64,000 nucleotides of DNA, taken from contig NZ_HF570956.1 in the NCBI RefSeq assembly GCF_000367525.1, positions 300,721-364,720 of the forward strand. Direction: 5' to 3'. The stretch is from Phycicoccus elongatus Lp2 (GTDB taxonomy: Bacteria > Actinomycetota > Actinomycetes > Actinomycetales > Dermatophilaceae). A model generated the notes under the pieces. The model did not search any database and had not been told where the DNA came from. It saw only the letters and a program-made list of their open reading frames with translations. Position 1 is the first letter of the stretch. Every line of letters begins with the position of its first letter. Below are positions 15,039 to 57,126 of this stretch, in pieces. A program made the position numbers and the translations under genes.

Positions 15039-15130
15039 TGTCGAGATGCAGCTAAGACTGCACGATGTCGTGCTGGGTACTCTGCACAACTCGGCCCGTC
15101 GGCTGGGGCCTTGCAAGATCGCCTTCGAGC
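15039..15130 (+). repeat. Left transposon end, element 1
   Basis: Starts TGTCGAGATGCAGC. Inside are AGACTGCACGA, TACTCTGCACA and an inverted-type CTTGCAAGATCGCC, spaced as TnsB/TniA-binding repeats are in Tn7 and Tn5053 ends. 15131-15292 shows nothing further. Confidence 0.7.
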
Positions 15131-15292
15131 AACCGGGGAGCGTCTACGTACTCTATGCGCTCTATGCGCGGCAGAAGAGTGCGTTCCTCGCAGCCAACTC
15201 GCCGTCGTGAACGACCTGCGAATAGTCGCCGGGGTGACAGTCCGCCAACGGTTCTTCTGGCCTGACGCGCCAGTCCTCAAGGTTGCTGAGCG

Positions 15293-17653
15293 TCAGTCGA
15301 TGGATTGTGCGCGAAGGCGTAGGGCGTTGGTGATGACGCTGACGCTGGATAGGGCCATGGCGGCCGCGGCGATGATGGGTGAGAGCAGGAGCCCGAAGAC
15401 GGGGTAGAGGACGCCGGCGGCGATGGGGATGCCGAGTGCGTTGTAGACGAAGGCGAAGAAGAGGTTCTGTCGGATGTTGGCCATCGTTTTCGCTGAGAGG
15501 TTTCGGGCTCGCACGATGCCGGTGAGGTCGCCTTGGAGGAGGGTGACGCCGGCGCTTTCGATGGCGACGTCGGTGCCGGTGCCCATGGCGATGCCGACGT
15601 CGGCGGCGGCGAGGGCGGGGGCGTCGTTGACGCCGTCGCCGGCCATGGCAACGACGTGGCCCAGGCTGCGGAGCCTGATCACGATGTCGCTCTTGTGGTC
15701 GGGCAGGACTTCGGCCTCGACCTGCTCGATCCCCAGGGTCGCGGCGACGGCTTGGCCGGTCACCCGGTTGTCGCCGGTGAGCATGACGACGTGGATGCCG
15801 TCCGCACGCAGTGTTTTGAGGGCGTCGGGGGTGGTGGCCTTGATGGGGTCGGCGATGGCGAAGAGTCCGGCGAGCTGGTCGTCGATACCGATGTAGATGA
15901 CGGTGGCGCCGTCGCCGCGCAGGTGGTCGGCCCTCTCCCGGACGTCGGTGCTGTCGATGCCGTGTGAGTCCAGGAAGGTGGCGCTGCCCAGGGCAACCCG
16001 GTGCCCGTCGACGACACCTTGGGCGCCGCGACCGACGGGTGAGTCGAAGTCGGTGACGTCGGGAACATCGAGGCTTCGGGTCGTGGCGGCCTCGACGATC
16101 GCCAGGGCCAGTGGGTGTTCGGAGGCGCGTTCAACCCCGGCGGCAAAGCGGAGCAGGTCGTCCTGGGAGTGACTACCGGTGGCGACGATGTCGGTCACGG
16201 TGGGTCGGCCTTCAGTGAGGGTGCCGGTCTTGTCGACGACGAGGGTGTCGACCTTCTCCATCCGCTCGAGCGCCTCGGCGTTCTTGATCAGCACGCCTAG
16301 TCCCGCGCCGCGTCCGACTCCGACCATGATCGACATGGGTGTGGCCAGTCCGAGTGCGCAGGGGCACGCGATGATCAGCACGGCGACGGCAACGACGAGG
16401 GCGTGTGCCAGTTTGGGGTCGGGTCCGACCAGGCCCCACACGATGAACGCGATGACGGCGATGACGATGACGACGGGCACGAAGATGCCGGCGACCTTGT
16501 CGGCCATCCTCTGGATGGGTGCGCGGGAGCGTTGCGCTTCTGAGACCATGGCCACGATCCGGGCCAGCATGGTGTCGATGCCGACCTTTTCGGCTTCCAT
16601 CATCAGCGCGCCGCTGCCGTTGATGGTGCCGCCGATGACGGGGTCGCCGGTGGTCTTGGTGACCGGCATCGACTCGCCGGTGACCAAGGACTCATCGACG
16701 GCGGAACGGCCATCGATGACGGTCCCGTCGACGGGGACGGCTTCGCCCGGGCGGACGCGGAGCCGGTCGCCGCGCTGGACGGCGTCCAGGGGGATCTCTT
16801 CGTCGTCGCCGCTGTCGGTGATGCGGCGGGCCGTCTTGGGGCTGAGGTCGAGCAGTGCCTTGATCGCCCCGGAGGTTTGCTCGCGGGCCCGCAGCTCGAG
16901 CACTTGGCCGAGGAGGACCAAAGTGGTGATGACGGCGGCGGCCTCGAAGTAGACGTCGACGGTGCCGTCGTCGCTGCGGAAAGAGGTGGGGAAGATCCCC
17001 GGCGCGAGTGTCGCGACGAGGCTGAACAGCCAGGCGATGCCGGTGCCCATCGCGATCAGGGTGAACATGTTGAGGTTACGGGTCCGGACCGAGGCCCAGC
17101 CGCGCACGAAGAAGGGCCAACCCGCCCAGAGCACGACCGGCGTGGCCAGGAGCATTTGCGCCCACACCGACGCGGTGGCCGGGATCAGGTCGTGCAGCCA
17201 CGGGACGAAGTGGCGGCCCATCTCGAGAATGACGATAGGGATGGTCAACGAAGTGGCGACCCAGAAGCGGCGGGTCATGTCGGCCAGTTCCGGACTTGGC
17301 CCGGTGTCGGCGGTCACGGTGACCGGTTCCAGGGCCATCCCACAGATCGGGCACGACCCGGGGCCGAGTCGGCGGATCTCGGGATGCATCGGGCAGGTCC
17401 ACTCCGCGACCTCACCCTGCACTGGCGAGGTCGCGGGGGGGATGCCGCTTGGGGCGCCGACGGCTTGGACATACGCGGACGGGTCCTGCTGGAACCGGTC
17501 GCGGCACCTCTGGGAGCAGAAGTGGTATGCCGTGCCGTCGTGCTCGAGGGTCAGCACGCTCTCGCGGTCGACGTCCATCCCACAGACGGGGTCGGTCGCG
17601 CCCGGTCGGGTGGGCACGTTGTCGTGTGGGGCGAGGTGGTGTTCGTGCTGCAT
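15293..17653 (-). CDS. copA: Copper-transporting P1B-type ATPase
   Basis: 786-residue P-type ATPase exporting copper across the inner membrane. It begins with a YHS-type domain (DPVCGMDV and [11 protein letters not shown]) and a second metal-binding stretch WTCPMHPE with CPICGMAL, features of the CopB/SilP-like branch. Eight helices follow, with the transport motif [11 protein letters not shown], phosphorylation loop [16 protein letters not shown] and the hinge [19 protein letters not shown] 17653 is preferred because the YHS domain begins just after it. It heads the left side of a copper operon read leftward, with the transposon end 160 bases past its stop. Confidence 0.9.
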
Positions 17654-17715
17654 GTCCGCTGCTCCTGACGTGGCGCTCGGGATGCCCCTGAAATGCAGGG
17701 CCGGGATCGTGTGGG

Positions 17716-17823
17716 TCAGCGTCGGCTGGCGGAGTAGCTGGCCTCGGTGACCGCGCGGATGACGTCTGCGTCGTCGACCGGGAGATCGCTGATGATCGTG
17801 AGTTCGCCGTTGGCGCGGTGGTC
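17716..17823 (-). pseudogene. C-terminal scrap of a CopZ-like metal-binding domain
   Basis: About 35 codons reading [18 protein letters not shown], then [11 protein letters not shown] and a stop: the last strand-helix-strand of a heavy-metal-associated domain. There is no start, and the frame is closed by the TGA of the upstream gene. The metal-binding CxxC half is missing, so it is a remnant of a copper chaperone between two copper genes. Confidence 0.6.
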
Positions 17824-18102
17824 TCAGTGTTTGGGTTGGTTGTTGCCGTGGTTCATCCAAGCCATCATCAGGCCCATCATGAGCAGGCAGCCGGCGGCGT
17901 AGATGAGCCCGCCGAGGCCGAGGCGGCCGGTGGCGATCAGGGCACCGACGAGCAGCACCATGGGCAGGCACATCAGCCACATGAGCCAGTGCTGGCGGGC
18001 GCCGTGGTGCGCGTGTGGGGCCTGGGTGTCTTCGGCGGCGGGCGTGTTGGTCGGTGTGGTGAAGGCGGCGTACTCGTCGGGGTGTCGGGTCGAGTGGTTC
18101 AT
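17824..18102 (-). CDS. Small His/Met-rich two-helix membrane protein
   Basis: 92 residues: a polar N-terminus with several His ([16 protein letters not shown]), two membrane helices rich in Met and Leu with little charge, and a His-ending tail. It resembles the DUF2933-like small proteins found beside copper ATPases and oxidases. It may bind or pass copper in the membrane. It is read in the same direction as copA. Confidence 0.65.
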
Positions 18103-18218
18103 CGTTCCGCTCCTTGGGTGTCTTCCCGGGCGGGTGCCTGGGTGTTCTCAGCCTGCGCAGCTGTTGCCGAGGTGGGGCCGTGGTGGCGTGAAGGTCTGGT
18201 CAAGATCGCGTCGCCGGA

Positions 18219-19142
18219 TCATGGCAAGAGGTTCTCGGTGGTGGTGCCGCCATCGAGGGTGCGCAAGACCTTGCTGTCGGCGACGACGACGATCTCGAGG
18301 CCCCCGTCGCTGCCGCGCCGCGCGTGCAGCGCCTCGGCAGGGCCGATGCGTGTGGGGTTGAGACTCCAGGTGGCTCCGGCGTCGCTGCTGACGCCCAACT
18401 GGCCGGTTGTGGTGGCGATGACGATGGTCTTCTCGTCGGCCCAGGTGACGAGCAGGGCGGTCCCGGGCGGGGACAGTGGTCGCCAGGTGCTGCCGGTGTC
18501 GCTGCTGGCCAGGAGCCCGGCTTCGGTGGTGGCGAGCAGGGCCCCCGAGGTGGGGGCCGCAGCCAGCGTGCGCGGCGGAGCCGGGATCGAGCGGGTGGTC
18601 CACGTCGTGCCGTCGGTGCTCGACCGAAGGACACCGTCGAAGCCGACCACCGCGGCAGGGCCCGCGGTCAGGGCGTGGAAGTCGGACTGGCCGCCGCGGG
18701 AGGCCACTCGCCAGGTTCGGCCGGTATCGGTGGAGGTGATGAGTCCGACCGGCTGTGGAAGATCGACCCCGGCGCCGGGGTGTCCGGAGGCGTAGTAGGT
18801 GCCGTCGGGGGCGACGGCAAACCCCATCAGGTCGATGACCTGGCCGTTCTGAACCAACTCGCCGTTGACGTGGCGGAAGAGTCCTTCGTGGGTGGCCAGG
18901 AGGAGTTCCCCGGAGTTGGGGTCGCGGGCCACGGCGTGGATGTGGGTGATCGCCACGGGAGGCCGGCTCGACGAAGTCTCCGCCGGGGACGTGGCCGCGG
19001 CCGTGGCGGCGGGCGCTATGGCAGGGGACCCGCCGCGTGCCGAGGGGGTGGCGGTGCCCGGGGAACCACAAGCGGTCAGCACGGCCATTGTCGCGAGGGC
19101 GCTACCGGCGAGGAGGAGCCGACGGCGGGCGCGGGTGCTCAC
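18219..19142 (-). CDS. Lipoprotein with BNR/sialidase-like beta-propeller repeats
   Basis: 307 residues. The N-terminus has RARRRLLLAGSALATMAVLTACGSPG, a lipoprotein signal with lipobox LTAC. The mature part holds repeated Asp-box/BNR-like units (TDTGRTWR, STDGTTWT, SSDTGSTWR, SSDAGATWS), as in the F510_1955-type proteins of copper loci. GTG 19142 overlaps the stop of the oxidase gene, so it is translationally coupled. Anchored outside the membrane; the role with the oxidase is inferred. Confidence 0.75.
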   Translation of the reverse strand: MSTRARRRLLLAGSALATMAVLTACGSPGTATPSARGGSPAIAPAATAAATSPAETSSSRPPVAITHIHAVARDPNSGELLLATHEGLFRHVNGELVQNGQVIDLMGFAVAPDGTYYASGHPGAGVDLPQPVGLITSTDTGRTWRVASRGGQSDFHALTAGPAAVVGFDGVLRSSTDGTTWTTRSIPAPPRTLAAAPTSGALLATTEAGLLASSDTGSTWRPLSPPGTALLVTWADEKTIVIATTTGQLGVSSDAGATWSLNPTRIGPAEALHARRGSDGGLEIVVVADSKVLRTLDGGTTTENLLP

Positions 19143-20659
19143 GTCGCGTACTCCAGCGCGATCATCATGCCGGCCTCGGCGTGGTAGATGTTGTGGCAGT
19201 GGATCATCCAGTCGCCGGCGTTGTCGGCGTCCAGGTCGATCGCGAAGGACTGCATCGGCGCCATGAGGACGGTGTCCTTGCGCAGCCCGGAGGGCAGGGC
19301 GAAGGTGTGCCCGTGTAGGTGCAGCGGGTGGGTCATCATCGTCTGGTTCGTGGCGTTGATCCGCAGCCGCTGGCCAGCCTTGACGGTCAGTGGTTCGTTC
19401 TCCCCGAACTTGGCACCGTTCATGCCCCATTGGTAGGGCTTCATCGAGCCTTGCAGCGCCAGGTCCACGGTGGCATCCGGGGCCCTGTCCGGTAGTTTCG
19501 CGGACTCCGCCGGCCGCAGCTGGGAGCCGATGAGGACCTGCCCGGACAGCTCCGCCGGAGCGGCGTCGACGGCGGGCGCGCTGCCGCTGCCGGTGCGGAC
19601 CACCGCGATCGCCTGGCCGCCGCTGGTTTTGCCGAACGGGCGGGCCACGAGCGGGAACACGCCGTCGCCGAGGGTGACGATCGCGTCATAGCGTTCACCC
19701 ATCCCGATGTAGAACGCGCCGACCTCGGTCGGTTCGACGGCGTGGCCGTCACTGTGGGTGATCGTCAGCCGGTGTCCGCCAAGCGTGACGGTGAAGATGG
19801 TGTCAGAGGCGGCATTGATGACGCGCAACCGGATCCGCTGACCCGGCTTGGCGGTCAGGACATCGGGGTCGGTGGGTGGTTTGCCGTTGATCAGGAAGAA
19901 CGGGTAGGTCACGTCCCCGGCATCTCCCCACGGGGGCGTCCCCATCGACATTCCGCCCATCGACCCATGGTCCATGCCGCCCATCGACCCGTGGTCCATC
20001 CCGCCCATGCCGCCGGAGGAGGCGGGGCCGCCGTCGGCGATGAGTTTCTTGAGGACGTCATCGGGTGTGGTGCCGGTGCCGTCGATCCAGTCATCGAGGA
20101 CGACGATCCACTCGGCGTCATAGTCGCCGGCTTCGTTCGGGTCGTCGATGATCATCGGTGCGTACAGGCCTCGGTCGAGCTGGACCCCGACGTGGGGGTG
20201 GAAGAAGTAGGTGCCCGGGTCAGGTGCGGTGAACTCGTACACGTATTTGGTTCCGGAGCTGATCGGGTCCTGGGTCAGGCCGGGCACGCCGTCGGCGGCG
20301 TTGCGCAGCCGGATCCCGTGCCAGTGGATCGTGGTGTCGGCCGGGAGCTGGTTGTCCAGGGACACCCGCAGGAAGTCCCCGGCAGTGGCCCGGACCAGCG
20401 GCCCGGGGAGGGTCCCGTCGTACGCCCAGGTCGACACGGTTCGACCGCCGAGGTCGAGACTGACCGGCTTGGCCACCAAAGTCTTCTCGACGAGACGTTG
20501 GCTCGGGGAGGGGGAGAGCGGGGCCGGGGCGCCGAAGGTGCGCGACGGCATACCTGCCTTCCCCGGCGCCGGTGTGGTGCATGCCGCCACGGTGGCGGTG
20601 GCGGCGATGCCGAATCCGCCGAGGAGGATGTTGCGTCGCGAGAGCAGGGGGGAGGTCAT
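19139..20659 (-). CDS. Multicopper oxidase
   Basis: 506-residue laccase-type oxidase, probably oxidising Cu(I) outside the cell. It starts MTSPLLSRRNILLGGFG, a Tat-like twin-Arg signal, followed by a possible lipobox AACT. All copper ligand clusters are visible: HWHGIRL, FFHPHVGVQ, HPLHLHGHTF and HCHNIYHAEAGMM. A Met/His repeat GGMDHGSMGGMDHGSMGG in the middle could bind extra copper. ATG 20659 follows GAAAGG. It resembles mycobacterial MmcO. Confidence 0.9.
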   Translation of the reverse strand: MTSPLLSRRNILLGGFGIAATATVAACTTPAPGKAGMPSRTFGAPAPLSPSPSQRLVEKTLVAKPVSLDLGGRTVSTWAYDGTLPGPLVRATAGDFLRVSLDNQLPADTTIHWHGIRLRNAADGVPGLTQDPISSGTKYVYEFTAPDPGTYFFHPHVGVQLDRGLYAPMIIDDPNEAGDYDAEWIVVLDDWIDGTGTTPDDVLKKLIADGGPASSGGMGGMDHGSMGGMDHGSMGGMSMGTPPWGDAGDVTYPFFLINGKPPTDPDVLTAKPGQRIRLRVINAASDTIFTVTLGGHRLTITHSDGHAVEPTEVGAFYIGMGERYDAIVTLGDGVFPLVARPFGKTSGGQAIAVVRTGSGSAPAVDAAPAELSGQVLIGSQLRPAESAKLPDRAPDATVDLALQGSMKPYQWGMNGAKFGENEPLTVKAGQRLRINATNQTMMTHPLHLHGHTFALPSGLRKDTVLMAPMQSFAIDLDADNAGDWMIHCHNIYHAEAGMMIALEYAT

Positions 20660-20678
20660 GGTGCCTTTCACGGTGGGG

Positions 20679-20921
20679 TCAGTGGCCATCAACGATCAGG
20701 CGGCGTCGTTGCTCGTACTCCTCGACGCTCACCTCGCCGCGCGCCAGGGATTCCTTGAGCAGCGTCAACGGATCGGGGCGATCCATGCCGCCCCCCTGCC
20801 GATTCCGGGCCGGGAGCAGGGCGCGGACCACCAGGACCACGGCGATCCAGAACGTCAGGGTTCCGGCGGCCATCAGCAGCCACATCCACCAGCCCATGCC
20901 GTACCCGTTGCCCCACATCAT
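20679..20921 (-). CDS. SHOCT-domain membrane protein
   Basis: 80 residues: an N-terminal Met/Gly/Trp-rich helix (MMWGNGYGMGWWMW), a membrane span, and a C-terminal SHOCT motif DPLTLLKESLARGEVSVEEYEQRR. First gene of the leftward copper operon, with GGAGAG before ATG 20921. SHOCT proteins are usually small membrane or oligomerising parts; the precise role is unknown. Confidence 0.8.
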   Translation of the reverse strand: MMWGNGYGMGWWMWLLMAAGTLTFWIAVVLVVRALLPARNRQGGGMDRPDPLTLLKESLARGEVSVEEYEQRRRLIVDGH

Positions 20922-20939
20922 CGGTGCTCTCCTGACCCT

Positions 20940-20974
20940 GTCCTGCCCGCCTCATGAGGAGAGGCGGACAGGAC
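20940..20974. promoter_or_regulatory. 14-bp inverted repeat upstream of the copper operon
   Basis: GTCCTGCCCGCCTC (20940-20953) faces GAGGCGGACAGGAC (20961-20974) with one mismatch and a 7-nt gap. It lies 19 bases upstream of the first operon gene, between it and the divergent regulator gene. It could be an operator or a leader hairpin. Confidence 0.5.
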
Positions 20975-21091
20975 CACTGTCCGTGGGTGACCTCAAGGCC
21001 CGGCCGTGGTCACGTTGAGATTTGACGAAGATCGTCCCCTGAGAAGGCCGGGAGTGGACGAGGTTCGCTCTTGAGCCGGGAGACTGAGGCG

Positions 21092-21817
21092 GTGAGCACG
21101 AACCCCACACCACCACCGGCAAGGGTGCTGGTCATCGAGGACGAGACCACGCTGGCCGGGCTGATCGCCGCCTACCTGTCCCGGGCCGGGTACGCCACGA
21201 CGACCGTCCACACCGGGCCCGACGGGGTGCAGGCCGTGCGCGAACACGCCCCCGACGTCGTCATCCTCGACCTGGGGTTGCCCGGGCTGGATGGCATCGA
21301 GGTATGCCGCCAGATCCGAACCTTCTCCGACTGCTACGTCATTGTCGTCACCGCCCGCAAGGACGAGGTCGACACCCTCATCGGCCTGTCCGTGGGCGCG
21401 GACGACTACGTCACCAAACCGTTCAGCGTCCGCGAACTCCTCGCCCGCGTCCAGACCGTGCTGCGCCGCCCCCGGACCGGGTCCACGAGCGCATCAGAGA
21501 CCCCGAGCAGCGAACCGATCCGAGTGGTCGGGGCACTCCGTGTTGACCCCAACGGTCATCGCGTCCACCTGGCCGACACCGAGGTGGCCCTCACTCCGAC
21601 GGAACGGGACCTCCTCATCACGCTGGCTCGACGACCCACGATGGCCTTCACCCGTCGCCAGCTCATTGACGTCATCTGGGGAACCGACTGGGTCGGGGAC
21701 GAGCACCTCGTCGATGTCCACGTTGCCCACCTGCGCCGCAAACTCGGCGACGACCCCGACACCGGCCGCTACGTCACGACCGTGCGAGGCATCGGCTACC
21801 GGATGGGACAAGGATGA
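21092..21817 (+). CDS. OmpR-family response regulator, copper element
   Basis: 241-residue regulator with a receiver domain (phospho-Asp in DVVILDLGLPGLDG, Lys in YVTKPFSVREL) and a C-terminal OmpR winged helix (LTPTERDLLITLARRP, HLVDVHVAHLRRKLGDD). GTG 21092 follows GGGAG. It is divergent from the copper operon and overlaps the kinase gene, so it probably controls the copper genes in the manner of CopR/CusR. Confidence 0.9.
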   Translation: MSTNPTPPPARVLVIEDETTLAGLIAAYLSRAGYATTTVHTGPDGVQAVREHAPDVVILDLGLPGLDGIEVCRQIRTFSDCYVIVVTARKDEVDTLIGLSVGADDYVTKPFSVRELLARVQTVLRRPRTGSTSASETPSSEPIRVVGALRVDPNGHRVHLADTEVALTPTERDLLITLARRPTMAFTRRQLIDVIWGTDWVGDEHLVDVHVAHLRRKLGDDPDTGRYVTTVRGIGYRMGQG

Positions 21818-22929
21818 CCACCACCCACAGTCCCTCGTCGACCGGCCTCGCGACCAGGCTGCTGGCCGGGCAGGCCATCGTCCTGGTGGCCGGCGCGCTG
21901 ACCGTGGGACTGGTCGCAGCCGTCATCGGACCCCCGATCTTCCACCAGCACCTTCTCGAAGCCGGACACCAGCAGAACTCCCCCGAGCTCGTGCACATCG
22001 AGATGGCCTACCGCGACTCATCCCTCATCTCCGTTGGGATCGGTCTGCTCATCTCGCTGCTCGCCGCAGGCGCCGTCACCTGGTTCCTCACCCGCCGACT
22101 GCGCCGCCCCCTCGAGCAAGTCACCCACGCGGCCCGCGAACTGACCATGGGGCACTACGCCATCCGCGTCCCTGCGATCGCTGCCGGCACCGAACTCGAA
22201 ACCCTCGCCGCAGCCTTCAACACCATGGCGGCCCGACTCGACAGCGTCGAAGACACCCGTCGCAGAATGCTCTCGGACCTGGCCCACGAACTCCGCACCC
22301 CCATCGCCACCATCAGCGCGTACCACGAAGGCCTCCACGACGGCGTAACCAGCCTCGGTCCCGAGTCCAGGGCCGCACTGGAGGAACAGACCCAACGGCT
22401 GGCCCGTCTCGCCGACGACATCGACGAAGTCTCCACCGCAGAGGAAGGCCGACTTGCGCTCGACCTCCGCAGCCACCATGTCACCGACCTGCTCTGGGCA
22501 GCCCACGACGGCATGCGCGACGCCTATGCCGCCAAAGGCATCAACCTCATCGTCGAGACCTCGACTACCGCCGGCCTCGACATCCACGTCGATCGCCACC
22601 GGATCGGCCAGGTTCTCGCCAACCTGCTGAGCAACGCCCTACGACACACCCCGCCCGGTGGGACCGTCACGCTGACCGGTCACAGCAGCCCTCACCACAC
22701 GACTCTCACCGTCACCGACGACGGAGACGGAATGACCCCCGAACAACTCCAGCACGCCTTCGAACGCTTCTACCGAGCGGACTCCGCCCGCACGCACGAC
22801 CGCACCGGCTCAGGCATCGGCCTGACGATCAGCCGGGCCATCATCAACGCCCACGGCGGCAGCCTCACCGCAGCCAGCAAAGGCACGGACCAAGGCAGCA
22901 CGCTCACCATCAACCTGCCTACCCCGTAG
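21814..22929 (+). CDS. Sensor histidine kinase, copper element
   Basis: 371 residues: a first membrane helix near 15-40, a short outer loop of about 30 residues with several His (FHQHLLEAGHQQ), a second helix, a HAMP linker, HisKA with LSDLAHELRTPIATI (phospho-His), and an HATPase with N box LLSNALRHTPPGG and G boxes DDGDGM and GSGIGLTI. ATG overlaps the regulator stop. The His-containing loop would suit copper sensing; this is inference. Confidence 0.9.
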   Translation: MTTTHSPSSTGLATRLLAGQAIVLVAGALTVGLVAAVIGPPIFHQHLLEAGHQQNSPELVHIEMAYRDSSLISVGIGLLISLLAAGAVTWFLTRRLRRPLEQVTHAARELTMGHYAIRVPAIAAGTELETLAAAFNTMAARLDSVEDTRRRMLSDLAHELRTPIATISAYHEGLHDGVTSLGPESRAALEEQTQRLARLADDIDEVSTAEEGRLALDLRSHHVTDLLWAAHDGMRDAYAAKGINLIVETSTTAGLDIHVDRHRIGQVLANLLSNALRHTPPGGTVTLTGHSSPHHTTLTVTDDGDGMTPEQLQHAFERFYRADSARTHDRTGSGIGLTISRAIINAHGGSLTAASKGTDQGSTLTINLPTP

Positions 22930-22944
22930 CGGCACCAGGTCGCT

Positions 22945-23166
22945 GTCCGCCCGGCGCGAGGCGGTTGGGAAGGTTCGACGGCGCGGCTCCGACGCGGGCG
23001 TGCAGCCGGCCTTTGATGCGGCCCTCCGGGACGCCGCATCTCCACCCGGCTGCCTCCGCCCGGGCGGCGTACCAGACACGCACGTCGGGGTCGTCGAGGC
23101 GGTAGAGCAGAACCATGACGTGGCCCCACGGCAATTGCGCAGCAGCTGCTGCGCAATTGGGGTCCG
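22945..23166 (-). pseudogene. DUF1016 (YhcG-type nuclease) remnant, copy 1
   Basis: About 70 codons match the N-terminal DUF1016 domain: LPWGHVMVLLYRLDDP, VWYAARAEAAGW and GRLHARVGAAPSNL. The PD-(D/E)xK nuclease half is missing. Bases 22985-23163 are nearly identical to 39824-40003. It lies just inside the right end of element 1. Confidence 0.7.
23132..23159. repeat. 28-bp perfect palindrome, copy 1
   Basis: CAATTGCGCAGCAG is followed directly by its reverse complement with no loop. It lies inside the DUF1016 remnant and encodes the run of Ala. An identical palindrome is at 39968-39995. Confidence 0.85.
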
Positions 23167-23249
23167 TAGGCAACCGCGGAGAGTCAGTCACGGCTTGCCC
23201 ACGCAAAGGCCATCGATCCATAATGTCGGGGTAGAAAATGCGGCGGAGG

Positions 23250-23410
23250 CATAACACGACGTTAATGTTTCATGGAAACCGCGTTTGTGAAATCTTCGCT
23301 GCATCTCGACAACATCTGTCGAGATGCAGTCAAGATTGCACGACCGTATGCGGCGTACTCTGCACCATCGGTCGAACTTGAAGACGTCGTGCAAGAGCCG
23401 CTGGGCTCAC
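23250..23410. repeat. Element 1/2 junction: right end, 5-bp spacer, left end
   Basis: The right end has ATAACACGACGTTAATG, then TTTGTGAAATCTTCGC and GCATCTCGACA ending 23311. Spacer ACATC (23312-23316). The left end has TGTCGAGATGCAGTCAAGAT from 23317, then GTACTCTGCAC and GTCGTGCAAGAG. Five bases is the usual Tn7/Tn5053 target duplication length. Confidence 0.75.
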
Positions 23411-23453
23411 CAAAGGTGACGAGAACTCTCTCTCCGGCTTCACCTTGGAACAG

Positions 23454-23912: not shown

Positions 23913-24041
23913 CGTTCGAGAGTACGCGCCCGACTCGTGCACGGTGCGCCCTCTCTGGGCCGTTATCCCGCGTGGAGTCACCGGCGCGGCCACGGCCCGC
24001 TGCCCTCACCGCTCGCGGCCGACCGCACGAGGTGCCGCGGT

Positions 24042-26791: not shown

Positions 26792-26859
26792 GTCACGACG
26801 CCGCGACCTCGCCGCATCTGGACAGCTGAACCAGCCTCATAACTGAAGGCGCTCAACGC

Positions 26860-45207: not shown

Positions 45208-45208
45208 C

Positions 45209-48438: not shown

Positions 48439-49205
48439 CGCGCGGCCGCCGACGCCGTCAGACAAACCCGAGTCTCGCGACCCAATCGCTCATCAAGGTC
48501 CACCGTGAGGTCACCGCTGCGGATCCCATGCCAGACCGCCGAGAGAAGGTGCCCTTCGCCCTCGTCCAGGTCAATCACTTGACCTATGGTCCAAAGAGTT
48601 CCCAGATTCTCAACGAGCATCTTGAGGGCTGTCCGGTGCCACGGCATCGTGCGCCGGTAGCCATCCAGCCACATCAGGTTGACCCGCCGGGTGGCACTCA
48701 TGCCCGAGAAGAGCTCGTAGCGCCAGCCAAAAATGGCGCACGCCTCGCGAGTCAGCTCAGCGTGGGACTGGAACTTCTCGTCCTGCCGTTCGACCGGGCG
48801 AACGTCCCACACAGTGACGACACCAGCGACATCGATGCTCAAGAGATCTGGGTAATGGAAATCAAGCCTCCCGGCCTTTGCGATTTGGAACAGAACCCGC
48901 GCAGGCTGCGGAACCAACCACACAATGCTGGGTCGCTGATCAAGGTCGCGGACGAGGTCATGTTCGAGCCCAGACTCAAGGCGCAGATGCTGGCCAACGG
49001 TGATTGAGAACGCCCACACAGGTATATGAGATTGATGGCTTCCACTTCGGATCCCACGCGCCTGCCGGATTCTCGCGAGGTCGGGCGGCGCTGGCCCGAC
49101 CCAGGGCGTAGTCCCCGCACCAAAGTTGAAGTGCCATCGCGGCCCGCTCGGCGAGGTGGCACAAGAGCGCCCATGGGCAGGCAAACTCGCAATAGAGTGC
49201 TGCAT
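48435..49205 (-). CDS. tnsA: TnsA-like endonuclease subunit
   Basis: About 256 residues. Restriction-enzyme-like signature: Glu in LESGLEHDLVRDLDQRP (near 77-81), Asp120 in FHYPDLL, then VVTVWDVRPVERQ (131-141). TnsA cuts the 5' strands so that the element leaves cleanly. In the last motif an Arg stands where Tn7 TnsA has the catalytic Lys; DVRP seems usual in actinobacterial TnsA-like proteins. ATG 49205 follows GAAGGTG. First gene of the tnsA-B-C-tniQ-tniQ operon. Confidence 0.75.
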   Translation of the reverse strand: MQHSIASLPAHGRSCATSPSGPRWHFNFGAGTTPWVGPAPPDLARIRQARGIRSGSHQSHIPVWAFSITVGQHLRLESGLEHDLVRDLDQRPSIVWLVPQPARVLFQIAKAGRLDFHYPDLLSIDVAGVVTVWDVRPVERQDEKFQSHAELTREACAIFGWRYELFSGMSATRRVNLMWLDGYRRTMPWHRTALKMLVENLGTLWTIGQVIDLDEGEGHLLSAVWHGIRSGDLTVDLDERLGRETRVCLTASAAAR

Positions 49206-49500
49206 GACGGCACCTTCGTTCTTCGCGGACTCATCGGGACCGTCACTGGGGCACTGTTCGTCGCAACCGAACGGTGCCCCTCTCTCGTGGTCCCTCAGCA
49301 CAGGCTAGGACCGCTTCCCGGCTAATACCGCCATCCGTTGAGAACCAAACGGCATTCGCTTATTGCGTCCGCGCTTCTATCCACAGGGCGCCCGGAGAGG
49401 CCCCGCTACAGCGATATCAGACCGCCGCTGACCTGCGGGGACGCAATAATTGCGCCACCAGCGGTCTCGGTTCAAAACGCCAGCGAAGAGGTTCACGGCC
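49206..49500. other. Divergent intergenic region of element 5
   Basis: 295 bases between tnsA (leftward) and the zinc-finger gene (rightward). Both promoters must be here. AT-richer stretches such as TTGAGAACCAAACGG and CGCAATAATTGCG are visible; the latter is a short palindrome at about 49442-49454. No gene seen. Confidence 0.4.
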
Positions 49501-50120: not shown

Positions 50121-53100
50121 GTGCCAACGATCTTCGACAACCTTGCAATCGACCGTCAACTGGGCGGGGCTCTGAGGGAGCACTTTGCGAATTCCTACAG
50201 TCGAGTCGACGTGGCGACGGGGTATCTGGACTTGCGGGGGTGGGCTCATCTTGGCGAGGTCATCGAGCAGAAGACCTTCGCTGAAGGGGACGAGCCTGTC
50301 GCCCGAGTTCTCGTGGGCATGGTGGCCCCATCGGACTCGCAGGCGATCCTCAACTCACTTCAGAGTGAGCTGGCGGAACCCGATGTGGGTCCTGCGATCC
50401 ATGACAATGCCAAAGCGATTGAGCAGAAGGAGCGACTGGTGCGTCACCTACGCACCCAGCTGATGCGCGGTCTACCGACGAAGAGCGGTCAGACCACTCT
50501 GCAACTGATGAAGCGTCAGCTGGAATCGGGGCGTGTCCAGATCAAGGTGTTCACGCGTCGCCCACTGCACGGGAAGACGTACATCCTTCGAGGTGGGGGC
50601 GGACCTGTGCCCTTGTGGTCGTACCTCGGGTCATCCAACTTCACGGGCGCCGGGCTGTTCAACAATCTGGAACTCAATATCGACATCGCCGACCAAGACC
50701 CGAACCAGAAACTTGCCGCCTGGTTCGAGGACCGTTGGAACGACAAGTACTCGTTGACGATCACCAAGGAGATCATCGAACTCATCGAGGAGTCGTGGTC
50801 GGGCGAGGAACAAGCGACCCCGTTCGAGGTCTACCTCAAGGTCTGCCACGCCCTTTCACAAGACGCCCGCGACGGCCTGGGGTACATCCTCCCGAAATCC
50901 ATGCAAGACCTGCTGCTCGACTACCAAGTCACGGCCGTTCGCACCCTGGCCCGCCGCATCGTCCGCCGCGGCGGCACCATGCTCGGCGACGTCGTCGGCC
51001 TCGGCAAGACCCTCACGGCCATCGCTACCGCCCTCATGCTCCAAGCGGCCGAGGACTACTCCACCTTGGTCCTCTGCCCGAAGAACCTCGAGCAGATGTG
51101 GAAGGAGCACCTTGAGGCATACGGCGTCGAGGGTGCACGCGTCGTGCCCTACTCGATGGCCGACAAACTGTTGCCGGACCTGAAGCTCTTCAAGCTCGTA
51201 ATCTGCGATGAGTCCCACAACTTGCGCAATGACTCGACGAAGGCACACGAGGCCATCAGGGAATACGTACGACGGAACTCCAGCAAGGTTCTGCTGCTCA
51301 CGGCCACGCCATACAACCTGGCCTTCGCCGACGTGGCGAACCAGCTCGCCCTCTACATCGACGACGACGATGACCTCGGGATTGTCCCCTCAGCCGCCAT
51401 GGCGAAAGACCCGAACCTGGTCGACAGGGTCGACGGCAAGACGAACACACTGGTCGCCTTCAAACGATCCGAGGAAGCCGACGACTGGCGGCGCCTCATG
51501 TCAGATCATCTCGTTCGTCGCACCCGGACCTTCATCAAGAAGTCGGCGCGCAAAAAGACCGTCACCATGCCGGACGGCACGACGGGGCAGCGGGAGTACT
51601 TGCAGTTCGCCGATGGCAGGGAGTTCTTCTTCCCCACCCGGATCCCACACCCACTGACGCACAAGTTCGGAGAGAACGACCCGGCCTCACTCATGGAGGA
51701 TGACGACACGCTCAATGCCATCGCGAGGCTGACTCTGCCCAGGTACCGACTGTCCGACTACGAAGACCCCAGAACCGCCAAGACGCCGCAGGACAAGCAG
51801 TACCTGGACGACATCCGGTCCGGCCGTGGCAACGTGAGCGGCTTCGTCCGCGTCGGGCTCTTCAAGCGGCTCTCTTCCTCAGGCCACTCCTTCATTTTGT
51901 CTCTCCAGCGGCAGCGAGCCCGCAACGAGCTCTTCATCTACGCCCTCGACGAGAAGCTGCAGATCCCGTTGGGCACCTTTACGGACCGTCAGATCTTGGT
52001 CAGCGATGAGGACCTCGAGAACGACGAGCCAGTCGGCGGGTCCCTGGCGAGCCGATATGAGGAACTTCGCCAAAACGCGCCGGCCAAGAGCAAATGGCTC
52101 AACTCCACCGTCTTCAAGACGACACTGCGCCACGACCTCGTCAAGGACAACGAACTCATCACGGCCATGCTGAACCGGTTCGGCAGCTGGGACTCCACCC
52201 GCGACACGAAGGTCAACGCGCTGGTCGACCTGCTCCGAGGCGAGCACGAGGGCAAGAAGGTCCTCGTCTTCAGCGAGTACAAAGACACCGCCGACTACGT
52301 CGCCGAGGCCCTTGAAACCGCCGGAATCGACAATGTGGGCCTGGCTACCGGCGACTCCACAGACCCTTCCGACGCCGCTCGTCGCTTCTCGCCGCGCTCC
52401 AACCGGCTCCCCGGCCAGAGCGTCGAGGAGGTGAAGGAACCCGACAACCCGATCGACGTCCTGGTCGCCACGGACGTGCTCTCGGAGGGCCAGAACCTCC
52501 AAGACAGTCACGTCATCGTCAACTACGACCTCCCGTGGGCGATCATCCGCCTCATCCAGCGCGCCGGCCGCGTCGACCGTGTCGGACAAGAATCCGACAC
52601 GGTCCACGTATACCTGATCACTCACGACAAGCTCGAACAGCAGATCCGCCTGCGACAGCGCATCCGCGCACGCCTCAGCGCAGCAGCCGAGGCATTTGGG
52701 TCCGACGAACAGTTCTTCGGGACCGACGACGAAGTCAAACTGCTCAACGACTTCTACGACGGCCGACTATCAGACAGCGATGACGATGGTGAGGGCGAAG
52801 CGGACGCGGTCAGCGAGGCATGGCTCGCGTGGAGCAACGCGCAGGACAGCCACCCGGCCGTGACCAAGCGGGTCCTGGCCCTGCCAGACCTCATCCACTC
52901 AACCCGGGGCAGATACGCCCGCGAGGCCACGGGCGGCGTGACCTGCTTCGTTCGCACCGAGTCTGGCGTCGACGCCTTCGCAATCAGCGAGTCGGCGAGC
53001 GGCACTGAACGACTCCTCACACCAGCCGAGGCTCTACGCATCTTCGAGGCCGAGCCCACCACTCCGACCGCACCGCTACGTGACGATCACTTCGAGCGGG

Positions 53101-53420
53101 AAGCCGAGTTGGTCCGCGGCCCATTGACCATCGAGGCTCGAGCAGCCGGCAATCTCCGCGGAGTCCGCAAGCGGATCTGGGAACGCTTCGGTGGCACGTT
53201 CTACGCAGAGCAGGCGGAGGAGGCGCTCAACGCGCTTCACGAGCGGCCCCTAACAACCCATGCAACCAACCAACTATCTATCGCCCTGCGCAACAAGTAC
53301 GCCGACCAGGACGTCCTCGACCTGCTCGACCGCCTCTACCGGGAGGAACGCCTCGTCATCGGCTCCAGCGAGTCCGATGAGCTTCGGATCGTCTGTTCGA
53401 TTGGAGTCGCTGACACATGA
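50121..53420 (+). CDS. PLD-nuclease/SNF2-type helicase fusion
   Basis: 1099 residues. The N-terminal phospholipase-D-like nuclease domain has H150-x-K152 (PLHGKTYILRG) and GSSNFTGAGLFNNLELN. The helicase has Walker A GDVVGLGKT (289-297), DESH (363-366), LTATPYN and the C-terminal motifs LVFSEYKDTADY, ATDVLSEGQNLQ and IQRAGRVDRVGQ. A C-terminal 250-residue part is of unknown fold. The start is GTG 50121. It overlaps the methylase gene by four bases, so it probably works as the translocating nuclease of a restriction-like system. Confidence 0.85.
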   Translation: MPTIFDNLAIDRQLGGALREHFANSYSRVDVATGYLDLRGWAHLGEVIEQKTFAEGDEPVARVLVGMVAPSDSQAILNSLQSELAEPDVGPAIHDNAKAIEQKERLVRHLRTQLMRGLPTKSGQTTLQLMKRQLESGRVQIKVFTRRPLHGKTYILRGGGGPVPLWSYLGSSNFTGAGLFNNLELNIDIADQDPNQKLAAWFEDRWNDKYSLTITKEIIELIEESWSGEEQATPFEVYLKVCHALSQDARDGLGYILPKSMQDLLLDYQVTAVRTLARRIVRRGGTMLGDVVGLGKTLTAIATALMLQAAEDYSTLVLCPKNLEQMWKEHLEAYGVEGARVVPYSMADKLLPDLKLFKLVICDESHNLRNDSTKAHEAIREYVRRNSSKVLLLTATPYNLAFADVANQLALYIDDDDDLGIVPSAAMAKDPNLVDRVDGKTNTLVAFKRSEEADDWRRLMSDHLVRRTRTFIKKSARKKTVTMPDGTTGQREYLQFADGREFFFPTRIPHPLTHKFGENDPASLMEDDDTLNAIARLTLPRYRLSDYEDPRTAKTPQDKQYLDDIRSGRGNVSGFVRVGLFKRLSSSGHSFILSLQRQRARNELFIYALDEKLQIPLGTFTDRQILVSDEDLENDEPVGGSLASRYEELRQNAPAKSKWLNSTVFKTTLRHDLVKDNELITAMLNRFGSWDSTRDTKVNALVDLLRGEHEGKKVLVFSEYKDTADYVAEALETAGIDNVGLATGDSTDPSDAARRFSPRSNRLPGQSVEEVKEPDNPIDVLVATDVLSEGQNLQDSHVIVNYDLPWAIIRLIQRAGRVDRVGQESDTVHVYLITHDKLEQQIRLRQRIRARLSAAAEAFGSDEQFFGTDDEVKLLNDFYDGRLSDSDDDGEGEADAVSEAWLAWSNAQDSHPAVTKRVLALPDLIHSTRGRYAREATGGVTCFVRTESGVDAFAISESASGTERLLTPAEALRIFEAEPTTPTAPLRDDHFEREAELVRGPLTIEARAAGNLRGVRKRIWERFGGTFYAEQAEEALNALHERPLTTHATNQLSIALRNKYADQDVLDLLDRLYREERLVIGSSESDELRIVCSIGVADT

Positions 53421-56230
53421 TTCAAGACCTGCTGCCCAAGGTTGATCGAGGAGACTTCCAGGAGGTCTTCATCGAGGACCTCAACTGGCTCGCCCCAGAC
53501 GTGAAGCAGTCCGTCACAGCGACCGGCGATGACGGCCGCAAGGTCAGTGCCCGGAACATTGCCTCCTACAAGGGGTTGCGTGTCTGGCTCTGCGATGAAC
53601 GCCCAGGTTCTGTCCTTGAGGCCGAGCTCGACCGCCTCATCGCCAAGACCTCGACTGACCGGCTCGTCATCTTTGACGATGACAAGGAGCAGGTCTGGCG
53701 GTGGCCGGTTCGTCGGGCCAAGGACGGCTCCGTCACCTCACGCCTGACCAGCCACCGACACAAGAAGGGCGACGCTGACCCGAAGTTCGCCGCGCGGCTC
53801 GACATCATCCGTATGCCGTTCGACGTCGTGCTGGATGCCAACGCGGTGCTGGGCAAAGTCCGTGAGGCCTTCGACACCGAGGCCCAGAACGAGTCAAAGC
53901 GCGCCTCGAAGCTCATGGCCACCATGTATGCCGCGGTCGAGAAGGCATACCCCACGAAGGTCGATCCCAAGGTCCGGGACCACGAGATCTCGGTGACGCT
54001 TGCCCGCATCCTCTTTCTCATGTTCGGCGACGACACCGAGATGTGGGAAACGGACGCCTTCCGAAACGTTATCCAGCACGAAGTCTTGCCCGACGGCTCG
54101 AACCTTGCCCGGGTGCTGAACGACCTCTTCGCCTTCCTCGACACCGCGCACCCGCAGCAGATTCCGACCGGCTTCGGTGGCTTCAAGTACGTCAACGGCG
54201 GCATCTTCGAAGAACCGATCGAGCTCCCCCCGCTCGGCAAGGACTTCCGCACGGCGATCCTCGACGCCTGCGCCGTCGACTGGTCAGGGATCAGCCCCGC
54301 CATCTTCGGCTCCATGTTCCAGTCCGTCCGTGACGCCGAGACCCGTCGCGCCCTCGGCGAGCACTACACCTCTGAGGAGAACATCCTCAAGACACTCAAC
54401 CCACTCTTCCTCGACGAGCTGCGCGAAGAGTTCACCGCGGCTCTTGCCCGAGATACCACGCAAAAGAAGGTCAACTCGCTCAACAAGCTGTGGGAGCGAC
54501 TCGGTGACACCCGATTCATGGATCCAGCCTGCGGCTGCGGCAACTTCATCATCGTGGCCTATCGCGAGCTCCGTGCGATCGAGCTCCAGGTCATGGAGGC
54601 CCTGCATAGCCTGAACCAAGTGGCCGGTCAGGAAACGTTGGGCGGGGACCTCGTGCGGCAGATCCGGGTAACCCTCGACCACTTCTACGGCATAGAGATC
54701 GACGAATGGCCAGCCCGAATCGCCGAGACAGCGATGTTCATGATCGACCGGCAGTGCGACCTCAAGCTTCGCGAGAGTTTTGGCTATGCCCCCGAGCGCC
54801 TCCCGATCCAGCGTGAGGCGACGGTGGCCGTTTCCAATGCTCTTCGCGTCAACTGGGCGGACATACTCCCGCCCAGTCCCGGTGTCGTCGTCGCGGGAAA
54901 CCCGCCCTTCTTGGGCAAGACCGAACGCACCGCCGAACAGACAGAGGACATGAAGTGGGCTTGGGGAGCTGATTACTCGGGTGAGGCCGATTTCGTCACC
55001 TCCTGGTTTGCCAAGGCAGTGGACTACTTCAACGACGTGGACGGACGTTGGGCCTTCGTTTCGACGAACTCGGTTACTCAAGGCGTCGTCGTCGCACCCG
55101 TGTTCGGACAAATAGCATCCCGTGGGTGGCATATCCGGTTCGCTCACAGAACCTTTGAGTGGACTTCAGACGCCACGGGAACCGCTGCCGTCCACTGCGT
55201 AATCTTCGGCATGGACCGCAGGGCAGCGGGCCCCCGGCGGCTGTTCAACTACGCCTCTGTGAAGTCGCAACCCATCGAGTTCCAGCCGTCAATAATCAAC
55301 GCATACCTCGTAGACGCAGCCGAGATCGTGGTGCGGGACCGACGGACCGCTCTCGCGCCGGAGATGACAACCAACATTCGATTCGGCTCGATGCCTGCCG
55401 ATGGCGGCGGTTTGCTGGTGAACGCAACAGAGGCGGCACACGTACGGTCCGTGGACCCTATTGCGCGCCGGTACCTTCGGAGATTCGTTGGCGCCAAGGA
55501 ACTGCTCAACAACGCGGAGCGATGGTGCATTTGGTTACCGGACGAACAACCCGAATCCATCGCCAAGTCGCCATTTCTCTCCCATCGAATCGAGATGGTC
55601 CGCGACTTCCGCACTGTGAAAGCGAAGGATGCTGGCGTGCGGGCAGCGTCTGGCACCCCGCACCGATTCAACCGGGTCCAGCAGCCACCCGGCCCGTACC
55701 TTTGTATTCCTCGTCACGTCCCCGAGTCGTACACGCACTTCCCGGCTGCCCACTTCGGACCTGACGTGATCTCGGGCGATGCCAACTTCGTCCTAGATGA
55801 TCCAACGGGGATCTTCTTCGCCATTGTGTCCTCAGGGATGTTCATGGTCTGGCAGAAGATGGTTGGCGGGCGCATCAAGAACGATCCCCGCTTCGCCAGC
55901 ACTGTGACATGGAATACCTTCCCTCTTCCTCCACTGACACCTCCGGCGCGGCAAGCCATCGTTCGTGCTGGTATGTCAGTGCGCGAGGCTCGTGCAAGCA
56001 CGCCGGATCTCACGCTAGCTCAGCTCTACGAGCCAGGATCCATGACGAGTCGTCTCCAGGCCTCCCACGAACATCTCGATGAGATCGTCGAGTCCTTGTT
56101 CGGCCTCAATCCTCGGTCATCGACTGAGATCGAACGTCAGACCGCGCTCTTCTCCCGCTACGTGGAGATGGTGACAGGACCCCTATCACTGGCGGTCACC
56201 CAGGGGCGCAGTCGTGCAAGAGCCAAGTAG
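53417..56230 (+). CDS. N6-adenine DNA methyltransferase of the Eco57I/MmeI type
   Basis: 937 residues. The N-terminal 150 residues contain RLVIFDDDKEQVWRW, like regulatory or nuclease-like leaders of this family. A helical part with GEHYTSEENILKTLNPLF follows, then the methylase core: motif I DPACGCGNF (369-377), GIEIDEWPARIAE, and motif IV GNPPFLG (494-500). The remaining 400 residues hold the target-recognition region (VDPIARRYLRRFVGAKELLN). It would mark self DNA or act with the neighbouring helicase-nuclease. Confidence 0.85.
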   Translation: MIQDLLPKVDRGDFQEVFIEDLNWLAPDVKQSVTATGDDGRKVSARNIASYKGLRVWLCDERPGSVLEAELDRLIAKTSTDRLVIFDDDKEQVWRWPVRRAKDGSVTSRLTSHRHKKGDADPKFAARLDIIRMPFDVVLDANAVLGKVREAFDTEAQNESKRASKLMATMYAAVEKAYPTKVDPKVRDHEISVTLARILFLMFGDDTEMWETDAFRNVIQHEVLPDGSNLARVLNDLFAFLDTAHPQQIPTGFGGFKYVNGGIFEEPIELPPLGKDFRTAILDACAVDWSGISPAIFGSMFQSVRDAETRRALGEHYTSEENILKTLNPLFLDELREEFTAALARDTTQKKVNSLNKLWERLGDTRFMDPACGCGNFIIVAYRELRAIELQVMEALHSLNQVAGQETLGGDLVRQIRVTLDHFYGIEIDEWPARIAETAMFMIDRQCDLKLRESFGYAPERLPIQREATVAVSNALRVNWADILPPSPGVVVAGNPPFLGKTERTAEQTEDMKWAWGADYSGEADFVTSWFAKAVDYFNDVDGRWAFVSTNSVTQGVVVAPVFGQIASRGWHIRFAHRTFEWTSDATGTAAVHCVIFGMDRRAAGPRRLFNYASVKSQPIEFQPSIINAYLVDAAEIVVRDRRTALAPEMTTNIRFGSMPADGGGLLVNATEAAHVRSVDPIARRYLRRFVGAKELLNNAERWCIWLPDEQPESIAKSPFLSHRIEMVRDFRTVKAKDAGVRAASGTPHRFNRVQQPPGPYLCIPRHVPESYTHFPAAHFGPDVISGDANFVLDDPTGIFFAIVSSGMFMVWQKMVGGRIKNDPRFASTVTWNTFPLPPLTPPARQAIVRAGMSVREARASTPDLTLAQLYEPGSMTSRLQASHEHLDEIVESLFGLNPRSSTEIERQTALFSRYVEMVTGPLSLAVTQGRSRARAK

Positions 56231-56993
56231 CGGTCTTCCAGTTCGCGTGGTCGAACTGGCGACCACGATGTTCGCGCGGGAGACAGGCTTCAGCGGTCCA
56301 GACCTTTACCGGCTCTTCGCGGAGTACACGGATGGGCTCGGCGAGTATGCCGGCTGGGGCGGGGGAGCCGAGTCGCGCTGGCAGACCTTCCAACGCGGTC
56401 TCAAGTTGCTCACGCGAGAACATCAGGTGCGCTTCCTGCTCGAACTGTGCGAGTACGACGGCTACATCAAACACGGCCGGCCATCAGACGAGCAGATCGC
56501 CAAGCTACGCGCGCTGCTGCTGGCCGAGAGCGCGCCGGGCTCGGATGCATCTGGTGAACGACTCGCGACCTTGGAGGACTGGAAGTCCGTACAGACCTCC
56601 TGGCGTCAGGCCCTCGACAAGATCCACTCAGACCCTGAGGGAGCCATCACGGCCACGCGCACTCTGTTGGAGAGCACCTGTAAGCACATCTGCGACGAAC
56701 GCGGGGTGGCCTACGAGAACTCATGGGACCTTAGCCGCCTCTACAAGGCAGCGTCGGGAGCCATGAACCTGGCTCCCGATCAGCACACAGAGCAGGTGTT
56801 CAAGCAGATCCTGTCCGGAGTGTCCACGGTCGTCATAGGTCTAGGTGCGATGCGCAACAGCCTCAGCGACGCGCATGGTCGAGGGAAGAACGCTGTCCGC
56901 CCGGCACCTCGACACGCCAAGCTTGCCGTGAATGCAGGCTTTGCCATCGCAGGCTTCCTCATCGATACGCACATTGAGCGTCCCGCGTCGTAG
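56214..56993 (+). CDS. Abi_C-type abortive-infection-like protein
   Basis: 259 residues. The C-terminal half matches the abortive infection C-terminal domain: ALDKIHSDPEGAITATRTLLESTCKHICDE, LYKAAS, ILSGVSTVVIGLGAMRNSLSDAHGRG and a final helical AKLAVNAGFAIAGFLIDTH. GTG 56214 overlaps the methylase end by 17 bases. Such domains are found beside restriction-like genes and are thought to add growth arrest. Stop lies 70 bases from the element's right end. Confidence 0.75.
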   Translation: MQEPSSGLPVRVVELATTMFARETGFSGPDLYRLFAEYTDGLGEYAGWGGGAESRWQTFQRGLKLLTREHQVRFLLELCEYDGYIKHGRPSDEQIAKLRALLLAESAPGSDASGERLATLEDWKSVQTSWRQALDKIHSDPEGAITATRTLLESTCKHICDERGVAYENSWDLSRLYKAASGAMNLAPDQHTEQVFKQILSGVSTVVIGLGAMRNSLSDAHGRGKNAVRPAPRHAKLAVNAGFAIAGFLIDTHIERPAS

Positions 56994-57044
56994 ACGGGCA
57001 GGGGAATAGCTAGTCGACCCAAGACTGGCACCCATAACGCGACC

Positions 57045-57126
57045 TGGCCAACACGCCCGAGCTGCATAACGTCACGTTAATACTGTATTGAAGCGCCGTT
57101 ACTCCAATCTTGGCTGCATCTCGACA
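57045..57126. repeat. Right end of element 5 beside dnaB
   Basis: CGCCCGAGCTGCATAACGTC, ACGTTAATACTG, GCGCCGTTACTCCAATC and TTGGCTGCATCTCGACA. No left end follows: the next bases are AA and then the dnaB stop. It marks the outer border of the array. Confidence 0.75.

Follow-up and report, generated by a model that had tools for sequence, protein, structure and literature searches.

A tandem array of Tn7-like cargo units adjoining dnaB in Phycicoccus elongatus Lp2

Integron arrays accrete small cargo at one growth point, where the newest unit is the nearest, and many of their units lack a mobility gene. In composite SCC islands and tRNA-linked tycheposons, cargo is added serially at the 3' end of a host gene, again with many units that carry no recombinase of their own. 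Tn6022-like elements have a heteromeric transposase, internal-deletion derivatives, and comM as the attachment site; to our knowledge, they have not been described as ladders of machine-less units, i.e., units without transposition genes. The gene set of Tn5053/Tn402 elements is tniA, tniB, tniQ, and tniR, and the termini of Tn5053 begin with TGTCG. Here, we describe an array of five units with transposon ends adjoining dnaB, the replicative helicase gene, in a stretch of 64,000 nucleotides from Phycicoccus elongatus Lp2 (Dermatophilaceae; contig NZ_HF570956.1, positions 300,721 to 364,720), hereafter called the window. The arrangement is a form of Tn7-like genomic island with a dnaB site and an integron-like layout, and it is both real and unusual.

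Like integrons, dnaB arrays of this kind probably accrete cargo at one growth point and contain many units without a mobility gene, but their units differ in having transposon ends, 5-bp duplications, a larger size, and often their own regulators. No integrase was found among the array genes scanned with Pfam (not all genes were scanned, and attC sites were not searched for). Whereas SCC islands and tycheposons use serine or tyrosine recombinases, the transposase here is of the DDE type and is accompanied by TnsA, TnsC, and TniQ. Tn6022-like elements are comparable as heteromeric transposase elements that yield shortened derivatives, although the site differs (comM versus dnaB). Relatives of TniB and TniQ and termini starting with TGTCG are shared with Tn5053/Tn402 elements, from which the array differs by a TnsA-like gene in its fifth unit and by the absence of a resolvase among the genes of that unit that were scanned. 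With Tn7-like elements, the array has in common a heteromeric TnsA/TnsB/TnsC/TniQ transposase, insertion in one orientation beside a conserved gene, and several inner end sites. The 5-bp duplication of Tn7-like elements is seen in relatives; in the window, the only perfect match is AATCA around the third to fifth units. The array departs from Tn7-like elements in its likely site, the 3' end of dnaB, and in duplications that can include the stop codon of this gene.

Attachment sites given for Tn7-like elements include glmS, tRNA, parE, comM, yciA, IMPDH, and SRP-RNA, and the same papers describe an uncharacterised actinobacterial clade of these elements as well as Tn7 immunity (PMC10293859, PMC8649781, PMC11406308, PMC12915292, PMC10991518, PMC8987985, PMC6360697). 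Two tniQ genes, as found here, are reported for 1,048 loci in PMC10293859. An earlier note, made from the sequence of the window alone, had regarded the arrangement as not described. This holds for the literature searched, in which neither dnaB as a Tn7-like site nor arrays of machine-less units were found; a prior mention is possible. Passages of two papers naming both dnaB and Tn7-like elements did not deal with an attachment site, and a third paper naming both (PMC3332091) is about an E. coli plasmid. Section 6 of PMC8649781 does mention neighbouring Tn7-like elements as a source of multiple left and right ends.

Unit borders and the transposition machine

The array extends from position 15039 to 57126 of the window and consists of five abutting units in the same (+) orientation: U1 (15039-23311, 8,273 bp), U2 (23317-26931, 3,615 bp), U3 (26968-27985, 1,018 bp), U4 (27999-36130, 8,132 bp), and U5 (36135-57126, 20,992 bp). 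Exact TGTCGAGATGC and GCATCTCGACA termini were found at all ten unit borders. TGTCGAGATGC occurs ten times in the window (15039+, 23311-, 23317+, 26931-, 26968+, 27985-, 27999+, 36130-, 36135+, and 57126-), each time at a border of U1-U5, and the whole genome of 3,174,691 bases contains a single further exact copy of this 11-mer, at 1,123,389. The units are separated, in order, by 5 (ACATC), 36, 13, and 4 (CATC) bases. The five segments with common beginnings and ends that the earlier note had described were thus recovered as stated.

When genomes were compared, left ends were found to be alike over ~90 bp and right ends over ~70 bp. Inward of these conserved ends, identity is flat between genomes (0.26-0.28) and noisier among the five window units (0.17-0.37). 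Left and right ends differ, and left ends carry three repeat-like sites that are candidate inner transposase sites. The further short repeats listed in the earlier note are present but partly degenerate: ACTCTGCAC is exact in three of the five left ends (U1, U2, and U5), GTCGTGCAAG also in three (U2, U3, and U5), and GTTAATG in one of the five right ends (U1). Three right-end types occur in the window, one shared by U1 and U4 (57 of the first 60 nt identical), another by U3 and U5 (U3 being nearest to U5, with 46 of the first 60 nt identical), and the third found in U2. Directly left of U1, at 14987-15034 (no strand assigned), 39 nt that are 90% like the right end of U4 are followed by TCTGGACA. 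This is a probable relic right end of an older sixth unit of the U4 type, and the array may therefore once have been longer. In addition, a 181-nt repeat with a 28-bp perfect palindrome is present at 22986-23166 in U1 and at 39822-40002 in U5 (97% identity), and no copy of it was found in the other loci compared.

The transposition genes are confined to U5, the dnaB-proximal unit, and lie on the minus strand. They encode a TnsA-like endonuclease subunit (48435-49301; NF033179, 111.9 bits for a cut-off of 110; no Pfam or PDB match), the TnsB transposase (46255-48465), a TnsC/TniB AAA ATPase (45209-46255; Pfam TniB, E 3.3e-12), and two TniQ proteins, namely TniQ-a (43834-45618, 594 aa; a Pfam TniQ match at E 2e-4 that misses the curated cut-off) and TniQ-b (42146-43837, 563 aa; Pfam TniQ, E 5.6e-19), the latter being the candidate reader of the dnaB site. 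The Pfam rve match of TnsB is weak. When this protein is aligned with the solved TnsB of a CRISPR-transposon (7svw, E 4.5e-8), the second D and the E of the triad are conserved. D290, D406, and E442 are the candidate catalytic residues; the corresponding motifs AVDVTRAD, RADNGAIF, and HVERWHD begin at residues 288, 404, and 440. No homologue or remnant of the five U5 transposition proteins was detected in U1-U4 even at E 0.1, in agreement with the earlier description of one machine-bearing and four transposase-less units. As a TnsA-like gene is present, directly before that of TnsB, the U5 machine is Tn7-like, and membership in the Tn5053 type (tniA-tniB-tniQ-tniR without tnsA) was rejected. 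Of the "Tn7/Tn5053-type" label first given to the ends, only the Tn7 part can be retained.

Among plasmids, TnsB matched 74 records, all at <60% identity, and TniQ-b had a single match in 72,556 records, on pGKT2 of Gordonia sp. KTR9 (37%). In this relative (L262), an end motif lies near TnsA and an IS3-family gene is located between two TnsB parts. A second route, directed at plasmids, would be compatible with the presence of two TniQ proteins; pGKT2 carries one relative. Relatives of TniQ-b amounted to 320 of the 7,995 candidate proteins scored. TniQ-b was found in 6 of 396 genomes sampled across the order (E 1e-30), five of them in the family, and the system thus looks narrow.

dnaB as the likely attachment site

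The right end of U5 is located 2 bp from the stop codon of dnaB (57129-57131, minus strand). The end pattern TGTCGAGATGCNNNNAA was present in 74 of 186 genomes of the family (reversed-pattern control, 0/186), and 108 dnaB 3' flanks, including that of the window, were then examined. They were drawn from the 170 of these genomes with a dnaB match, weaker matches being mostly left out; the loci were chosen, not random, and genomes with ends near dnaB were favoured, so the frequencies are not family-wide. Most stretches are at most 20 kb long, and 2 of the 108 have at most 150 bp past the dnaB stop. Ends were located with a 22-bp weight matrix that was derived from ends with the exact motif and overlooks degenerate or second-type ones; as a control, the reversed sequences of 60 of these loci (938 kb) gave no match. 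Within 110 bp of the dnaB stop, 42 of the 108 loci have a right end and none has a left end. In 10 further loci, a related end of a second type is found at a distance of 0-6 bp; one of them is G001, from the genus of the window (G and L numbers designate genomes and loci of the comparison). End-like sequences are also seen at the stop in G052, G055, and G117. An end near dnaB was also found in Cellulomonas humilata, which we take to belong to another family. The ends, once collected from related genomes as the earlier note had proposed, thus gather beside dnaB in many relatives.

The flanks of these units carry target duplications. Within a locus, the outer 5-mers matched perfectly in 21 of 136 left-right combinations, nested ones with common flanks included, when 1.1 were expected from between-genome pairs (41/4928); an offset control gave 1/544. 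Clear cases around single units are TTAGA in G002 and G144, ACAGC in G050, GGCAC in G145, TCTTG in G170, and, for machine-bearing units, CTAGA in G134, GGCGT in G012, and CCATT in G028. The dnaB stop codon is part of two of these sequences, TTAGA and CTAGA. Directly before left ends, the pattern [TC][TC]AGA was found in 11 of 62 cases for an expectation of 0.15 (3/1234 control positions), and a looser stop-copy pattern in 16 of 62 versus 2.9 expected. The ladder is clearest in G134, which reads CTAGA, unit 1, (A)CTAGA, unit 2, CTAGA, and dnaB. In the close relative G126, both flanks of this two-unit array are contiguous (954 of 995 aligned bases identical, 12 extra), which provides an empty site. 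In G122, a unit placed directly at dnaB is 95.3% like unit 1 of G134 over the right 2.2 kb but not over the left 0.9 kb. Boundaries vary between relatives, and the invariance that the earlier note had set against its own proposal was not observed. The 26 junctions identified in 14 genomes include 9 of exactly 5 bp.

A 494-bp unit with both ends and a perfect TCCGT duplication lies ~40 kb from dnaB in G102 (L129); it has no open frame of at least 130 aa and is a miniature element.

Taken together, the duplications, the stop-codon copies, and the ends beside dnaB in relatives support the proposal that the cargo array was built by transposition, and it is very probable, from these sequence comparisons, that such arrays arose by serial site-specific insertion at the 3' end of dnaB. 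This gene, which the earlier note had correctly placed next to the array, is likely the attachment site and growth point and not a mere neighbour. TniQ-b may be the protein that reads it: a match was found in 19 of the 21 dnaB-linked TnsB loci, and four TnsB loci elsewhere, the only control for this specificity, showed partial similarity (42-213 residues at 28-40%).

Several observations weigh against this interpretation. Transposition is deduced here from the comparison of sequences, and the role of TniQ-b is drawn from co-occurrence and from the analogy with TnsD and glmS, two of the 21 dnaB-linked TnsB loci being devoid of a TniQ-b match. Six of the 21 duplication matches (G160, four in G163, and G165) are weak, since their 5-mers also occur within the end sequence or overlap with it. 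Within the window, none of the units taken singly is surrounded by a perfect 5-bp duplication, and simple duplications do not account for the gaps of 36, 13, and 4 bp. AATCA occurs only left of U3 (26963-26967) and right of U5 (57127-57131), at the dnaB side, where it holds the dnaB stop codon in reverse complement, and ACATC or CATC is present at two junctions. U3-U5 may have been inserted together as a 30-kb composite, or else the flanks may have mutated. The left flank of the window was matched to no empty site in its own genus, in which G001 and G002 are both occupied, and the empty site sought by the earlier note was thus obtained only for the G134 array. In some other genomes, ends are also found at a distance from dnaB; in that of P. 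elongatus, 10 of the 11 exact copies are at unit borders, and the second objection raised by the earlier note, end sequences mainly away from such borders, does not hold. G157 has a second TnsB 330 kb from dnaB as well as an off-dnaB array with TCAGA spacers (L245, 2,600,500-2,620,499; dnaB at 3.229 Mb). Finally, Tn7 immunity should oppose insertion a few bp from an existing end; ends located 4-5 bp apart suggest that immunity is weak, end-type specific, or lost.

In the L245 array, a copper unit adjoins one that carries TniQ-b, TnsA, and a fragment of TnsB. Inverted ends were observed beside copper genes in G126 (L242) and G136 (L249), ~550-560 kb from dnaB, the genes being 88% identical to each other; these sites are perhaps a second insertion place in Janibacter-like genomes.

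The dnaB gene of the window (57129-61085, minus strand; Pfam) encodes a product of 1318 aa with intein splicing and LAGLIDADG domains. Across the family, the open frame at the dnaB 3' end ranges from ~200 to 1330 aa, and the intein content therefore probably varies.

Cargo and the origin of machine-less units

Cargo was assigned mainly with Pfam. U1, which has no transposition genes, carries a copper module composed of a heavy-metal P-type ATPase with YHS and HMBD domains (15293-17980, minus), a multicopper oxidase (19139-20692, minus), and a response regulator with a sensor histidine kinase (21071-22929, plus). U2 encodes an unknown 313-aa protein, a histidine kinase, and a LuxR-type response regulator, and U3 a single GNAT acetyltransferase (27146-27931, minus). 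U4 is devoted to potassium uptake, with kdpA-kdpB-kdpC-kdpD and a response regulator. In U5, the machine is accompanied by defence cargo: an IetS-like S8 peptidase and IetA-like AAA ATPase pair (36269-39587, minus; PADLOC, E 6.2e-73 and 5.6e-85), a defence-like PLD/SNF2 helicase (50121-53420, plus), an MmeI-like type IIG restriction-methylation protein (53417-56230, plus), and an Abi_C/AbiJ-like protein (56214-56993, plus). The U5 IetS is 89% identical over 684 aa to a protein of the G101 array. Directly after tniQ-b, a gene at 40281-41975 (minus) encodes a 564-aa protein that was assigned to no Pfam or PADLOC family and whose one NCBIfam match falls well short of the cut-off. At E 1e-20, none of the other 107 dnaB loci gave a match to this protein, which is a candidate for cargo or for an additional selector.

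TnsB was found in 21 of the 108 loci, none of which shows a recognised left end between TnsB and dnaB; nine of the 21 have at least two left ends and are thus informative on the position of the machine. This dnaB-proximal position in every TnsB locus examined sets the arrays apart from Tn7-like islands, and suggests that the machine is the newest arrival, that older machines were lost, or both. A second difference is that most units lack TnsB: in a mechanical count of 40 units, each defined as a left end followed by a right end, 8 have TnsB (16-28 kb) and 32 do not (0.5-9 kb, some of them of 0.5-2 kb); the G012 duplication pairs a left end with a later right end. Among the 42 genomes with a dnaB-adjacent right end, TnsB was present in the examined stretch of 12 and not in that of 30. 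Twenty-four of these 30 had no TnsB genome-wide (E 1e-20), and six had only distant homologues outside the array; these absences refer to the best candidates of a first look, and several genomes are incomplete drafts. In other TnsB genomes, including G018, G099, G105, and G129, the dnaB stretch was not included or is located on a different contig. With TnsB as the starting point, a search for Tn7 cargo would overlook many units, as 24 of the 30 genomes show no TnsB.

The absence of transposition genes from most units could mean that every unit arrived with a machine, that the older ones lost their tns genes by deletion, and that none moved in trans. We consider this a serious contender, if somewhat short of an even chance. 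Besides the position of TnsB, it accounts for remnants such as TnsA without TnsB in G104 and TniQ-b pieces in G124 and G145. It is also consistent with the Janibacter limosus contig L025, which carries TnsB and whose cargo matches a machine-less unit of G136 over 5.1 kb with 98% identity, and with G101, in which stretches like the IetS and AbiC genes that flank the U5 machine are ~120 bp apart without any machine. Likewise, G048 and G100 resemble machine-less versions of autonomous elements, with differing breakpoints. Machine loss by internal deletion is therefore well supported. Deletion as the sole origin fits less well with the near-identical right ends of U1 and U4, whose cargo is unrelated, and with units of 0.5-1.1 kb, which have one gene or no long open frame and would require near-total deletion; very small units have perfect duplications. 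The copper module is also suggestive of movement in trans. It recurs in different company in G101, G102, and G157 and contains no tns gene in these three genomes or in the window. Its full borders are available in the window and in G157, with two kinds of right end; the G157 copy combines a first-type left end with a second-type right end, within a perfect TCAGA duplication. On the strength of the copper module, the U1 and U4 right ends, and the small units, the chances that at least some machine-less units moved in trans appear about even. Both origins, movement in trans and deletion, have support.

An exchange of cargo by homologous recombination between arrays, through shared ends and dnaB, with transposition being rare and ancient, is unlikely as the main route. 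Some loci do point in this direction. The unit of G002 is chimeric and has essentially only its last 773 bp in common with U5, at 99.1% identity next to a dnaB segment with 83%; in this case, transfer between genomes is, to judge from the two identities, recent, and it speaks equally for mobility under serial insertion. Copper cargo is found between the ends of two lineages, U1 and U5 share the 181-nt repeat, and 17 of the 26 junction gaps are not 5 bp, many being irregular. Yet the perfect 5-bp duplications and the stop-codon copies, which are far above expectation, are products of transposition, and the common end stretches are short (70-90 bp). Lastly, the view of the array as one large element in decay, or as a tandem duplication, with repeated ends by chance, which the shared orientation and adjoining position of the units might evoke, is so improbable that it was rejected, given the unrelated cargo, the three right-end types, the loss of similarity 70-90 bp inside the ends, and the single units with perfect duplications at dnaB in G144, G050, and G145.

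Proposed growth of the arrays and its significance

Under serial transposition, TniQ-b would recognise the 3' part of dnaB in the way that TnsD recognises glmS in Tn7, and TnsC would recruit TnsA and TnsB bound to one left and one right end. The unit would be joined with its right end toward dnaB, and 5 bp, possibly including the stop codon, would be duplicated, leaving dnaB intact. Each new unit would thus land between dnaB and the older ones, the newest being nearest to dnaB, and the order of the units would record their age. Machine-less units may then have two sources, either an older machine-bearing unit that loses its tns genes by internal deletion or cargo between a left and a right end that is moved in trans by a related machine. 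We tentatively go one step further, to a proposal that we hold to be somewhat less probable than not: the 3' end of dnaB would be the growth point of a transposition-built counterpart of integrons, in which a dedicated TniQ reads dnaB and two-end cassettes of one or two genes are moved in trans and stacked by arrival. The machine at the tip would cap the array until lost, and any left end could pair with any right end nearer dnaB, giving nested mobile segments.

Tn7-like elements would thereby gain an attachment site at an essential replication gene that was not found in the literature searched. The dnaB arrays would form a natural ledger of insertions, in which immunity, machine loss, and movement in trans can be tested by strain comparison. 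If movement in trans is true, bacteria would possess, in addition to integrons and SCC-type islands, another means of stacking unrelated traits such as copper, potassium, and defence at one safe place.

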